Part shown: in pieces, positions 3,385-54,604 of the stretch | Layout: the number at the start of each line of letters is the position of its first letter | How positions within the stretch are numbered: the stretch's first letter is position 1 | Origin: Candidatus Paraprevotella stercoravium | GTDB taxonomy: Bacteria; Bacteroidota; Bacteroidia; Bacteroidales; Bacteroidaceae | Direction: 5' to 3' | DNA length: 54,604 nucleotides | Assembly: GCA_944320795.1 (NCBI GenBank) | Contig: CALUIU010000022.1 | Span: 1 to 54,604, forward strand | Program-made: the position numbers and the translations under genes | The notes under the pieces: model-generated | Seen by the model: only the letters and a program-made list of their open reading frames with translations | What the model was told of the DNA's origin: nothing | Database searches by the model: none

Positions 3385-3430
3385 TGTGTGTCTAATTTTT
3401 TAAGATTATTAATTGTTTTATTATTTATCG

Positions 3431-3518
3431 CGGAGAGAGGGGGATTCGAACCCCCGATACGCTTTTGACGTATACACGCTTTCCAGGCGTGCCTCTTCAG
3501 CCACTCGAGCATCTCTCC
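3431..3518 (-). tRNA. tRNA-Ser (anticodon GGA)
   Basis: An 88-base class II tRNA. The acceptor GGAGAGA pairs with TCTCTCC, and the discriminator is G at 3431. The anticodon arm is CACGC-CTGGAAA-GCGTG, giving GGA. A long variable arm (TACG...CGTA) and a GGTTCGAATCC T-arm complete it. CCA is not encoded. Confidence 0.97.
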
Positions 3519-27415: not shown

Positions 27416-27420
27416 CTCTG

Positions 27421-27491
27421 TTGGGCTACCTGGATTCGAACCAAGAAAAACAGGACCAGAATCTGTTGTGTTACCATTACACCATAGCCCA
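27421..27491 (-). tRNA. tRNA-Gln (anticodon CTG), copy 2
   Basis: 71 bases. Acceptor TGGGCTA pairs with TAGCCCA (U1-A72, typical of Gln), discriminator A. The anticodon loop TTCTGGT gives CTG, reading CAG codons. The A31-C39 closing position is unpaired, as tolerated in tRNA-Gln. It differs from copy 1 at one base in the D-loop (A at 27476). No encoded CCA. Confidence 0.95.
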
Positions 27492-27520
27492 ATAAACAAA
27501 ATAATAATAGTAGAAAAAAG

Positions 27521-27591
27521 TTGGGCTACCTGGATTCGAACCAAGAAAAACAGGACCAGAATCTGTTGTGTTACCGTTACACCATAGCCCA
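27521..27591 (-). tRNA. tRNA-Gln (anticodon CTG), copy 1
   Basis: Identical to the other copy except for one D-loop base (G at 27576), and exactly 100 bases from it. It is the promoter-proximal copy: TACCTTTG lies 17 bases upstream of its 5' end. Confidence 0.95.
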
Positions 27592-51801: not shown

Positions 51802-51944
51802 CATTTTTTATTCGTTATTTTTAGTTCTATTCTTTGCACGTTATGACATCAGTAAAAGTATAAAGTTTAAAGGAGAGAGGATCATTTAACAAAAAAAAAC
51901 GAACTTAGTAAAATAAAACATCCTGCTTCCCTAACAATAATGTT

Positions 51945-51952
51945 TATCTTTG
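51945..51952 (+). promoter_or_regulatory. -7 promoter box for aroB
   Basis: TATCTTTG, 29 bases before ATG 51982. It lies just inside the longer open frame from 51940, which argues against that earlier start. Confidence 0.6.
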
Positions 51953-51981
51953 CTTACACAAACCATTTTGAATCAGTCAAT

Positions 51982-53043
51982 ATGAAAAAGCAAGAAGTTA
52001 TCATTTCCGAGAATCTGGAGCAAAGTCTGAAACAGGCCATTGCCCAGTGCCCGCACGACCGTCTGTTTATCTTAACAGATGAAACCACACAAACACAATG
52101 CTGGCCCGTAATCAGCAACTTCACCTGTCTGCAGGAAGCCCAACATATCATAATCCGTTCTACCGATGATCATAAGAACCTGGAAAGTCTGGCTCACGTA
52201 TGGAGCGAGCTGGGCCGACTAGGAGGAACACGCCATTCTTTGCTGATCAACCTCGGCGGAGGAATGGTTACCGACTTAGGCGGTTTTGCCGCTTCTACAT
52301 TCAAGAGGGGTATTTCCTATATCAATATCCCGACGACTTTACTGGCCATGGTAGATGCCTCTGTCGGAGGAAAGACCGGTATCAATTTCAATGGCCTGAA
52401 AAATGAGATCGGTGTGTTCAATCCGGCGGCAACAGTCATTCTGGATACTGAATTCCTGAAAACACTCGACCGTGCCAACCTTTGCTCCGGCTATGCCGAA
52501 ATGCTCAAACACGGACTGATCAGTAACGAAAAAAACTGGAATGAACTATTGAGTTTTGACTTGGACAACGTTGATTATAAAAAGTTGCAAGACATGGTGG
52601 CTACCAGTGTGGCCATCAAAGAACGTGTCGTAGAAGAAGACCCGTTTGAACAAGGTATTCGAAAAGCCCTTAATCTAGGACATACTGCGGGACACGCTTT
52701 GGAAAGCCTGGCCATGAAGGAAGGACGCACGGTGCTCCACGGTTATGCTGTGGCTTGGGGACTGGTTTGCGAACTTTATCTGAGCACCCTCAAAACCGGA
52801 TTCCCGAAAGAAAAGATGCGTCAGGCCATTTATTATATCAAGGAGTATTACGGCACTTTTACCTTTACCTGTAAAGAATATGACCAGATTTATGAACTGA
52901 TGACCCACGACAAGAAAAATACCTCTGGAACAATCAATTTCACCCTATTGGAAGAAATCGGTGATATACGAATCAACCAGACTGCCGAAAAAGAAGACAT
53001 CTTCCAGATGCTTGATTTCTATCGCGAAGTAATGGGATGCTAA
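51982..53043 (+). CDS. aroB: 3-dehydroquinate synthase
   Basis: A 353-residue AroB, second enzyme of the shikimate pathway, converting DAHP to 3-dehydroquinate with NAD and zinc. The NAD-binding stretch LLINLGGGMVTDLGGFAASTFKRGI (about 87-111) and PTTLLAMVDASVGGKTGIN (about 116-134) are plain. Zinc ligands fall in SGYAEMLKHGL (Glu), LNLGHTAGHALE (His) and VLHGYAVAWG (His). The start is MKKQEVIIS. It supplies chorismate for aromatic amino acids, which fits the tryptophan-type leader 1.3 kb downstream. Confidence 0.95.
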   Translation: MKKQEVIISENLEQSLKQAIAQCPHDRLFILTDETTQTQCWPVISNFTCLQEAQHIIIRSTDDHKNLESLAHVWSELGRLGGTRHSLLINLGGGMVTDLGGFAASTFKRGISYINIPTTLLAMVDASVGGKTGINFNGLKNEIGVFNPAATVILDTEFLKTLDRANLCSGYAEMLKHGLISNEKNWNELLSFDLDNVDYKKLQDMVATSVAIKERVVEEDPFEQGIRKALNLGHTAGHALESLAMKEGRTVLHGYAVAWGLVCELYLSTLKTGFPKEKMRQAIYYIKEYYGTFTFTCKEYDQIYELMTHDKKNTSGTINFTLLEEIGDIRINQTAEKEDIFQMLDFYREVMGC

Positions 53044-53174: not shown

Positions 53175-53246
53175 GCGGTAGTAACTCAGTGGTAGAGCGT
53201 TGGCTTCCCAAGCCAAAAGTCGCGGGTTCGAATCCCGTCTACCGCT
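53175..53246 (+). tRNA. tRNA-Gly (anticodon CCC)
   Basis: 72 bases. Acceptor GCGGTAG pairs with CTACCGC, discriminator T. The anticodon arm TTGGC-TTCCCAA-GCCAA gives CCC, reading GGG. T-arm GCGGGTTCGAATCCCGT. CCA not encoded. Confidence 0.97.
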
Positions 53247-53252
53247 CATCGT

Positions 53253-53317: not shown

Positions 53318-54103
53318 ATGAAATTGCTTGAAACCATCTCTATCTTAGCCCTCTGCTTCCTTTCATACAGTCCGTTAAGCGCACAAAAAAACGACTACAA
53401 ACTCGTATGGAAAGAAAACTTCCGCGGACGAAACATCAACGAAAAATACTGGAGCAAAATTCCGAGAGGAGGCTCCGACTGGAACCGCCACATGTCGGCA
53501 CACCCCAGCCTGTATGAAGTGCGCCGAGGAACCGCCCGCCTTTATGGCAGAGTAAACGAGGGCATTGCCCCCGAAGACACGGCACGCTACATCACCGGAG
53601 GTATCTTTACCAAAAACAAAAAGACACTTACATATGGTAAAGTTGAAGTCAAAGCTCGTCTTCAGGGAGCACAGGGAGCATGGCCTGCCATCTGGATGCT
53701 TCCGGAAAACGGCAAATGGCCCGACGGCGGAGAAATTGACATCATGGAGCGGCTGAATCACGACAGCATCGCCTATCAGACCGTACATTCCTATTATACT
53801 TTTGTTCTGAACGAGAAAAAGAACCCACGTCCAGGAGGCATCGGCCGGATCGATCCGGATGGCCACAACGTATATGCCGTGGAAATCCTGCCGGACAGTA
53901 TCGTGTTCTCCATCAACGGTAACCACACATTCACCTATCCGCGTATTGAAACGGACAAAAAGGGCCAATATCCTTTCGGCACTCCTTACTATCTGCTCAT
54001 CGACATGCAGATTGAAGGCAGCTGGGTGGGCAAGGCCAATCCGGCAGAATACCCCGTACGTATGGAGGTGGACTGGGTGAAATTCTATGAGCTGAAGAAG
54101 TAA
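53318..54103 (+). CDS. Glycoside hydrolase family 16 beta-glucanase
   Basis: A 261-residue secreted GH16 enzyme. Signal peptide 1-22 (ending SPLSAQ). The jelly-roll catalytic domain has the family signature GGEIDIMERLN (about 144-154): the first Glu of EIDIME is the nucleophile, Asp assists, the last Glu is the acid/base. WPAIWMLPENGKWP precedes it and WVGKANPAEYPVRMEVDWVKFYEL closes the domain. It should cleave beta-1,3 or mixed-linked glucans; the exact substrate is not decided by sequence. No SusC/SusD or other sugar gene is near it. Confidence 0.92.
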   Translation: MKLLETISILALCFLSYSPLSAQKNDYKLVWKENFRGRNINEKYWSKIPRGGSDWNRHMSAHPSLYEVRRGTARLYGRVNEGIAPEDTARYITGGIFTKNKKTLTYGKVEVKARLQGAQGAWPAIWMLPENGKWPDGGEIDIMERLNHDSIAYQTVHSYYTFVLNEKKNPRPGGIGRIDPDGHNVYAVEILPDSIVFSINGNHTFTYPRIETDKKGQYPFGTPYYLLIDMQIEGSWVGKANPAEYPVRMEVDWVKFYELKK

Positions 54104-54188
54104 AATACATACCAAGATTACAGAAAATTTTAAGTTTGTATCATATTTTAGAAGACATTTTTCATCAAAAGGCTAGCAATATTTATAA

Positions 54189-54203
54189 ACAGTATAACAC
54201 TGT
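54189..54203. other. Short palindrome upstream of the leader promoter
   Basis: ACAGT-ATAAC-ACTGT, about 58 bases before the -7 box. Possibly an operator, possibly chance. The rest of 54104-54260 is A/T-rich with no gene. Confidence 0.25.
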
Positions 54204-54260
54204 AATAAAAAAATTAAAGAATAATTATAGAAAAATCTTTTTTCGCTTATAAAAAAAAAG

Positions 54261-54268
54261 TATTTTTG
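54261..54268 (+). promoter_or_regulatory. -7 promoter box for the tryptophan-type leader
   Basis: TATTTTTG, about 100 bases before the leader ORF. A second near match AATCTTTG lies at 54281-54288. Confidence 0.55.
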
Positions 54269-54369
54269 CATTTAAATAAAAATCTTTGCCTATGTAACAA
54301 AAGAAATAAAGACATATAATAACTAAAGTGTTAACGGATATTCTGCATTCATAAAATCGCCAAATTAAC

Positions 54370-54465
54370 ATGAAACAGTCTAGAATAGAAGTTAATGCTC
54401 ACGCCTCTAATATGGCGTGGGCTTTTCTTCATTTTTGGCTGTATGGTGTTTGGCGATACCAATGA
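54370..54465 (+). CDS. Leader peptide rich in tryptophan and other aromatic residues
   Basis: A 31-codon ORF starting MKQSRIEVNAHASNM and ending in GVWRYQ, with stop TGA at 54463-54465. It holds three Trp codons (54418-54420, 54436-54438, 54451-54453), two Phe and two Tyr codons in its last 15 positions, far above normal. The first Trp codon lies in the stem of both competing hairpins and the other two within the terminator hairpin. Such a peptide senses charged tRNA-Trp by ribosome stalling. The regulated gene must lie to the right of the window. Confidence 0.75.
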   Translation: MKQSRIEVNAHASNMAWAFLHFWLYGVWRYQ

Positions 54466-54498
54466 ATGAAAAATGAAGTTAAGGCCCACGCTTTTTTT
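54397..54498 (+). promoter_or_regulatory. Transcription attenuator with two competing hairpins
   Basis: Hairpin A: GCTCACGCC (54397-54405) with GGCGTGGGC (54414-54422), one G-U pair. Hairpin B: GCGTGGGC (54415-54422) with GCCCACGC (54484-54491), extended by CTTCATTTTT (54427-54436) with AAAAATGAAG (54469-54478), and followed by seven T (54492-54498). A and B share the same strand segment and exclude each other. B is an intrinsic terminator. The remaining bases to 54604 are A/T-rich and contain no gene start that I can assign. Confidence 0.75.
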
Positions 54499-54604
54499 AT
54501 TGTCTCAACCACAGAATTTAGGGCTAATTAGTCGTCCTTTAAAAATATCTTTATTCGCTGATATTCAATAATTTAATCTATAGAAAGTTTTGATAAATCT
54601 GCAA

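Follow-up and report, generated by a model that had tools for sequence, protein, structure and literature searches.

The last few hundred nucleotides of a contig from Candidatus Paraprevotella stercoravium carry the layout of an attenuator just before the sequence stops, and this raises the question of what is controlled there and by which signal. The window (the whole stretch analysed; 54,604 nt, assembly GCA_944320795.1, contig CALUIU010000022.1, positions 1-54,604, forward strand) is one entire contig, C22 of the genome that we call G000, and ends at 54604. The initial annotation, made from the letters alone, had read the region as a tryptophan attenuator. The features that it listed are all present: a promoter box, TATTTTTG, at 54261-54268, which fits TAnnTTTG; a 31-codon open reading frame (ORF) at 54370-54465 (MKQSRIEVNAHASNMAWAFLHFWLYGVWRYQ), with three Trp, two Phe and two Tyr codons in its second half; two mutually exclusive hairpins that share the arm 54414-54442; and seven T at 54492-54498, after the later hairpin. 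The fold energy is -64.5 kcal/mol for 54275-54500 (z -6.8) and -38.4 kcal/mol for 54390-54500 (z -4.6), and in each case none of 200 dinucleotide shuffles folded as well. The structured 5'-leader RNA copy itself occupies 54325-54498. The parts of the leader, with its surroundings, are as follows.

54261-54268, + strand: TAnnTTTG -7 promoter box (TATTTTTG); a box of this type precedes the RNA in 80 of 113 copies.
54292-54297, + strand: minimal start-stop ORF (ATG TAA), in the recurrent GCCTATG context of 54288-54294.
54327-54345, + strand: strand 1 (AGTGTTAACGGATATTCTG); partner of strand 2 (terminated fold) and possible partner of strand 4 (readthrough fold).
54346-54352, + strand: 5' arm of helix P2a (CATTCAT); partner 54462-54468 in the readthrough fold, with compensatory changes in all 7 pairs among 87 copies.
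54356-54364, + strand: core strand ATCGCCAAA, complementary to the P5 hairpin loop; 15 sequence groups in 50 copies.
54375-54405, + strand: strand 2 (ACAGTCTAGAATAGAAGTTAATGCTCACGCC); partner of strand 1 or strand 3.
54414-54442, + strand: strand 3 (GGCGTGGGCTTTTCTTCATTTTTGGCTGT); partner of strand 2 (antiterminator) or strand 4 (terminator).
54445-54460, + strand: P5 hairpin GGTGTTTGGCGATACC, stem GGY/RCC; its loop, 54449-54457, is complementary to 54356-54364.
54462-54468, + strand: 3' arm of P2a (ATGAATG); covariation in 87 copies aligned to a covariance model.
54469-54491, + strand: strand 4, the 3' arm of the terminator (AAAAATGAAGTTAAGGCCCACGC); 3:4 pairing in 87.8% of cells.
54492-54498, + strand: predicted U tract of an intrinsic terminator; mean of 8.1 T in 12 nt at this place in 113 copies.
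54521-54525, + strand: GGGCT, a weak candidate downstream element, complementary to GGCCC of strand 4.
54525-54530, no strand: TAATTA, taken as an insertion-sequence target-site duplication; an identical TAATTA stands at the matching insertion-sequence end on contig C5.

These parts would allow two folds. The first, the readthrough fold, would join strand 2 to strand 3, closed by P2a and a core helix, with strand 4 kept off strand 3, either unpaired or bound to strand 1. The second, the terminated fold, would join strand 1 to strand 2, and strand 3 to strand 4 as an intrinsic terminator ending at 54498. The 1:2 protector helix is an element absent from the initial annotation; the attenuator anatomy that it proposed (a terminator with a competing antiterminator), together with this helix, is backed by the comparative data below, whereas the tryptophan reading is not.

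Several other features of the window were recorded. A run of TATT tetranucleotide repeats opens the contig (1-77), a tandem pair of tRNA-Gln (ctg) genes with a 28-nt spacing lies at 27420-27591, and genes for tRNA-Ser and tRNA-Gly (ccc) lie at 3430-3518 and 53175-53247. Upstream of the leader are the 3-dehydroquinate synthase gene aroB (51940-53043; TIGR01357, over its cut-off) and a family 16 glycosyl hydrolase gene (53318-54103; PF00722). An aromatic-pathway gene sits before the leader 54325-54498, not behind it.

In the tryptophan reading, a ribosome stalled at the Trp codons of the 31-codon ORF would prevent the terminator from forming, as in leaders of the Bacteroid-trp type. Three Trp codons in 31, over a terminator with a competing hairpin, are what speaks for it. 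The proposed membership in Bacteroid-trp (RF01692) found no support in an Rfam scan (cmscan) of 53600-54604, in which this family was absent at E values up to 10 and a chance-level hit to mir-576 was the sole match. RF01692 has a single match in G000, at C8:39340-39485 (L262; 51.2 bits against a gathering cut-off of 49). There a short ORF, MNMNKNTYWWWRYSELKRS, contains three consecutive Trp codons (...YWWWRY...), and the gene behind it is trpB (TIGR00263, 588 bits against a cut-off of 392). This copy serves as a positive control for the search, and its place on C8 before trpB counts against the tryptophan reading of the window copy.

The ORF itself fares no better. Its ATG occurs in none of the 20 relatives aligned with the window (alignment A1, described below). 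The triplets aligned to its first, second and third TGG are TGG in 20, 2 and 18 of the 20, and the first and third recur because they are helix segments (CGTGGG and TTTGGCG). The start codon is thus absent from all 20 relatives, and two TGGs recur inside conserved RNA helices. RNA helices can in this way give rise incidentally to a short, Trp-rich ORF over a terminator, which is a caution for similar annotations. The genes behind the leader copies point in the same direction: aromatic biosynthesis enzymes are absent from the best 25 of 64 Pfam, 25 of 38 NCBIfam and 25 of 59 PADLOC families downstream, and the one exception to unrelated functions among the families shown is a match of the NCBIfam anti-TRAP model to one of 108 downstream proteins (E 3.4e-7), in a table that also holds DnaJ models. 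The initial annotation had named a downstream gene unrelated to aromatic amino acids as evidence against itself, and the gene that probably belonged to the window copy, an orphan of lipoprotein-like appearance (see below), is of that kind. An amino-acid attenuator was rejected, since a conserved leader ORF with repeated control codons is missing, and the same missing ORF refutes tryptophan attenuation as a trait of the family. For the window copy we give tryptophan attenuation practically no credence.

The leader is widespread. A blastn search with 54260-54604 gave matches in 24 of 101 genomes of the order, own genome included, part of which match only through the last 80 nt of the query (an insertion-sequence end); the segment 54260-54505 does have homologues in other genomes of the order, and these leader matches precede unrelated genes. 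A covariance model of the readthrough fold (R1; 169 positions, 43 pairs) finds one copy in G000 (E 3e-27). Of 151 sampled genomes of the family (own genome included), 108 (about 70%) carry it, with 365 copies in total, a mean of 3.4 and a maximum of 10 per genome. Across the phylum, 31 of 296 sampled genomes, again with its own, contain copies. A scan of named genomes with an exact-core pattern returned at least 119 stretches, and among the matches listed are Bacteroidales, Flavobacteriia, Reichenbachiella, an Ignavibacteria MAG and a Cloacimonadota MAG. In viral contigs, 39 stretches contain the 16-mer, and around 15 of the 18 inspected by eye show the wider motif, some with identical sequence. 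A blastn search of copy L032 against named plasmids and phages gave none at E 0.01, a search that diverged copies could escape. Two or three RNA copies lie inside 8 kb, in tandem or divergent, at L174, L092 and L094.

No Rfam 15 family exceeds its gathering score in the window region 53600-54604, nor inside the element at the 20 relative loci, where the single match above a gathering score, a tRNA in L030, lies outside it. In the literature search, which covered parts of PMC8040213, PMC11955535, PMC2864571, PMC5771137, PMC6414381, PMC2965389 and PMC6429828 among others, we recognised no description of the RNA, and one may be in print. The element therefore appears to be an attenuator-like leader family of Bacteroidota for which we could not find a match in Rfam 15 or in the literature searched.

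Two alignments were used to examine the pairings. A1 is a MAFFT alignment of 21 copies (the window and 20 relatives) found by blastn from the window. A3 holds 87 copies aligned to R1, out of 115 model matches (E up to 1e-9; 100 loci); the 28 matches dropped were 17 weaker sense copies and 11 antisense ones, sorted by eye. Conservation of the core in A3 reflects the exact-core selection of its source copies and is inflated, because the exact-core scan supplied them. For the readthrough fold, the slid controls are lenient in both alignments, because the structure was derived from one aligned sequence, and the A3 alignment was also fitted to the fold. RNAalifold on A1 gave 34 pairs, 16 of them with compensatory change, and drew P2a, the core helix, the 2:3 hairpin and an outer 1:4 helix; it drew neither the 1:2 nor the 3:4 helix. 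On A1, 88.0% of cells in the readthrough fold are paired and 22 of 43 pairs have double changes, a result reached in 0 of 500 shuffles. The corresponding values for A3, with the alignment fitted to the fold, are 93.9% and 40 of 43 pairs; double-change cells number 630, compared with 162 in shuffles. Within that fitted alignment, the 2:3 helices (helices 4-6) have 88.9-97.2% of cells paired and double changes in 22 of 23 pairs.

Helices outside R1 provide independent tests. The 3:4 terminator pairing holds in 87.8% of cells in A3, compared with 33-45% when slid, and was reached in 0 of 500 shuffles. The inner part of 1:2 is paired in 82.8% of cells (40-61% slid), and its outward extension, which uses the entire first hairpin region, in 79.8% (34-44% slid). 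The covariation score of each was reached in 0 of 500 shuffles, and the count of double-change pairs by 40 (inner) and 87 (outer) of 500. In an alignment-free test of 1:2, the mean best run was 6.51 in A3 against 5.69 in row-permuted controls, and 6.41 against 5.25 in a second set, A5. The 1:4 helix, also drawn by the free fold of the readthrough state, is paired in 82.0% of cells (39-63% slid) and its covariation score was reached by 2 of 500 shuffles, while its 26 double changes are not above those of the slid controls (25-36). It is possible that this helix would hold strand 4 off strand 3 in the readthrough fold; its signal may also follow from the resemblance of strand 1 to strand 3.

Two further pairings were considered. 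An outer helix had been suggested by eye, in which GACAT upstream of strand 1 would pair with TGTC beyond the U tract; it was rejected (5.05 against 4.95 in permuted rows). Strand 4 has an exact complement of at least 6 nt in a GGACT-like element after the U tract in 31 of 87 copies, against a mean of 14 and a maximum of 24 in row-permuted controls. The window itself is without such a complement and would need a G-U pair, and we regard this pairing as a weak candidate in a subset of copies. On the comparative evidence, then, both the alternative antiterminator and the terminator pairing appear to be kept by compensatory change, and the predicted terminator hairpin is followed by a U tract before a gene, both features of transcription attenuators.

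The core helix was examined in 50 copies, comprising A1 (21) and A5 (29). A5 consists of 29 of the 31 covariance-model loci without a simple core, among 48 inspected, and is enriched in variants because it was chosen from model matches of that kind. In these 50 copies, the loop of the GGY/RCC hairpin remains complementary to the upstream strand through 15 sequence groups, which were obtained by merging those of the 23 loop strings that have 6 nt in common, several strings differing in length alone. Examples of the core are TTTGGCGA, TTTGCCGA, TACCAGT, TTCCTAGG, TTGTCAGA and TCCCCAAT. The first two pairs of the P5 stem were required by the search. The third is T-A in 40 copies, C-G in 5 and T-G in 2, with no standard pair, or none found, in 3. 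Because the loop groups and the third pair both vary in this manner, stem and loop pairing both appear to be under selection.

The replaceable core bears on a different explanation, namely that the leader is a new riboswitch class in which the conserved core (AAATCGCCAAATT / GGTGTTTGGCGATACC, internal loops included) would serve as aptamer and bind a global signal molecule. A gene-agnostic distribution would suit such a device, as c-di-GMP riboswitches serve many unrelated genes, and so would the terminator expression platform and the nucleotides conserved next to the core helix (a preceding AAA, and GG and CC around it). The same core helix, however, occurs in 15 sequence groups in 50 copies, the conserved unpaired positions look few by eye, and the downstream families carry no hint of a pathway. 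We consider a riboswitch doubtful.

In the 2:3 fold, the loop strand and the upstream strand share a long helix. The terminated fold would instead display the upstream strand (AUCGCCAAA) in the loop of the 1:2 hairpin, where it could bind the GGU/ACC hairpin loop at the tip of the terminator. When this loop helix is left out, the 2:3 fold is the more stable one in 86 of 87 copies, by a median of 10.8 kcal/mol (12.9 in a second computation); the terminated fold is then the weaker, and plain folding would therefore give readthrough by default. With 1:2, 3:4 and the hairpin imposed, and the loop helix counted as an extra duplex, the 2:3 fold differs from the terminated one by a median of -1.5 kcal/mol, and 36 of 87 copies favour the latter; the loop helix energy is here a plain duplex value that ignores geometry. 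The window gives -62.2 kcal/mol for the 2:3 fold, against -51.4 plus -11.5 kcal/mol for 1:2 and 3:4 with the loop helix. Such a near balance, as computed, fits a switch. In L023, L104, L158, L175 and L188, a second ATCGCCA(A/G/T) segment follows the terminator, in several of them adjoining the start codon, and this segment could let the P5 loop touch translation initiation.

In 80 of 113 copies a TAnnTTTG box lies no more than 150 nt upstream of the RNA, compared with a mean of 10.6 (maximum 18) in letter shuffles and 20 on the reverse strand. The box takes one of two positions, around 65-70 nt or around 30 nt before strand 1, and the latter arrangement is found in 20 of 29 A5 rows and in 1 of 84 A3 rows. 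The A5 rows (L225-L251) include a short-leader group, mostly without a start-stop ORF, and 13 of the 29 have the core TACCAGT. The motif GCCTATG lies within 150 nt upstream in 42 of 113 copies, at 29-50 nt before strand 1 in 41 of them. The remaining site, at 133 nt in a short-leader copy (L242), is probably due to chance. In all 42, the frame opened by this ATG stops within three codons (22 stop after one codon, 15 after two and 5 after three), whereas the two remaining frames at these sites do so in 27 of 84 cases. All three stop codons are used, with 0, 1 or 2 sense codons after the ATG. Where GCCTATG is missing (72 rows), the same zone contains 40 ATGs, of which 25 open equally short frames, against about 26% in shuffles.

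The regularity of these start-stop ORFs, at GCCTATG sites and in the rows without that motif, invites the explanation that the leader is a sensor of translation status: a ribosome idling on the AUG-stop would bias the folding of strand 1, and the gene would respond to the state of initiation, release factors or antibiotics and not to a single amino acid. The distance is unfavourable, as the ORF ends around 30 nt before strand 1 and the footprint of a ribosome is shorter than this gap. The short-leader copies without a start-stop ORF also count against it, as does the site in L242, one of the 42, which is probably accidental. We judge this explanation unlikely as it stands.

A common function of the genes behind the leader was sought in 141 copies, of which 123 have a callable downstream ORF and 18 have none. 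The next gene is on the same strand in 118 of the 123, with a median of 90 nt from the core to the ATG. The downstream protein set (108 of the 118, with a start within 200 nt, cut at 420 aa) falls into 80 clusters, 67 of them singletons. Simple rules detect a hydrophobic N-terminal stretch in 80 of the 108 and a lipobox-like motif in 39. The commonest Pfam families are LRR_5 and LRR_8 (8 of 108 each), followed by LRR_4 (5); type I restriction N-terminal domains and zinc ribbons occur in 3 each, and models of HsdM-type methyltransferases match one protein. Restriction-modification genes are scattered among the downstream genes by Pfam and PADLOC alike. No function common to the set was recognised in the best 25 of 64 Pfam, 25 of 38 NCBIfam and 25 of 59 PADLOC families.

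Multiple copies near accessory genes, and in some viral contigs, would also be expected of a mobile DNA element (MITE-like, or a recombination site), in which the palindromes would be structures of DNA and not an RNA switch. The weak antisense matches (11 of 115) could be taken in its favour, and arise because the element is symmetric. A single orientation before the gene in 118 of 123 copies is difficult to reconcile with a mobile element, as are the promoter box upstream, the U tract after the element, the frequent G-U pairs and the high divergence of the copies. We therefore regard a mobile element as highly improbable, and treat the palindromes as those of a leader RNA.

The window copy has been separated from its gene. 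The initial annotation had proposed reading the first genes to the right of 54604, where the contig ends; the last 74 nt (54531-54604) belong to one end of an insertion sequence, several copies of which stand at contig ends. Its terminal inverted repeat is approximately GTCGTCCTTTAAAAA, and 6-nt repeats such as TAATTA, TATATA and TATTTA lie at its ends. In the relative L016, the same insertion-sequence end is followed by an ORF with the transposase domain DUF772. Five opposite ends were found in G000 by exact pattern, and one only, on C5, has the TAATTA of 54525-54530; C10 begins with a diverged copy whose left flank is similar, because of which we treat the C22-C5 match as an inference. The gene beside the matching end on C5 encodes 131 aa with a lipobox-like LSSC near the start. 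Against Pfam it gave nothing over the cut-off (LPAM_1 and one other fall below), and it is without a homologue at E 0.001 in 120 other sampled genomes of the family. Its ATG would fall around 95 nt after the core by hand count, close to the family median, and an in-frame ATG lies slightly earlier. By way of the target duplication, the original gene behind the window leader would be this orphan, lipoprotein-like gene and not a trp gene, and the insertion sequence would have cut the leader off from it by landing 32 nt after the terminator.

We conclude that the element is probably a gene-agnostic 5'-leader transcription attenuator with two near-balanced folds, of an RNA family unmatched in Rfam 15. 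The mechanism class given in the initial annotation is right, its tryptophan reading is wrong, and the object is larger than the one it described. Comparison among copies establishes the predicted strands with their alternative pairings, the U tract, the promoter box, a same-strand gene around 90 nt farther on and, in many copies, the start-stop ORF. That termination occurs and is regulated we infer from these parts. Because the leader is gene-agnostic, the choice of fold should be set by a signal shared by unrelated accessory genes and not by the product of one pathway. No ligand, regulator or common gene function was found among the genomes and families analysed; speculatively, the cue might come from a ribosome that sits at the start-stop codon, from a protein or from a small molecule. 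A broader proposal, which we put forward as possible rather than probable, is that a phylum-wide attenuator of four strands with a loop-strand lock, often headed by an AUG-stop, sets a changing collection of accessory and orphan genes in Bacteroidota by one global cue, for example translation status. If this is true, a newly acquired gene would join the regulon merely by sitting behind the leader. An RNA family of this frequency in its bacterial family would add a layer of regulation for many unannotated surface, lipoprotein-like and restriction-type genes. The start-stop ORF is moreover a recurrent leader part with a measurable readout, terminated against full-length RNA.

The closest known systems are the amino-acid attenuators. 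Those of the E. coli trpL type work by a 1:2, 2:3 and 3:4 strand logic, with an intrinsic terminator and U tract. The present leader has the same strand logic, terminator and U tract as these and Bacteroid-trp (RF01692), and in many copies likewise has a short ORF at its 5' end. It differs in that this ORF has 1-3 codons, no control codons and a position before strand 1, in that the downstream genes share no amino acid pathway, and in having a loop-strand helix that could link both hairpins of the terminated fold; the RF01692 model does not match it. Riboswitches with terminator platforms combine a conserved core with mutually exclusive antiterminator and terminator in a 5' leader. These features are found here too, but the leader has no recognised ligand pocket, the sequence of its core helix is replaceable and its genes give no hint of function.

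Among candidate RNAs, HMP2_4205 is a palindromic, terminator-like element of 132 bp, mostly from Bacteroidetes (Fremin and Bhatt 2021; PMC8040213). The leader resembles it, by description alone, in being palindromic, terminator-like and of Bacteroidetes, and differs in that HMP2_4205 is described near TPR genes. The GUCCY-hairpin motif of Bacteroidetes and Proteobacteria is listed, in its table, without an Rfam number (Weinberg et al. 2010; PMC2864571); compared by that table row alone, it shares the Bacteroidetes, and its name resembles the GTCC of strand 4. Finally, start-stop ORFs have been reported from ribosome profiling, in a list of 18 putative internal out-of-frame sites, and regulatory roles have been proposed for them (PMC11955535). 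As in the sites of that list, the initiation codon of the leader is followed at once, or nearly so, by a stop; in contrast to those internal sites, the start-stop ORF here is a recurrent element in the leader of an RNA family.
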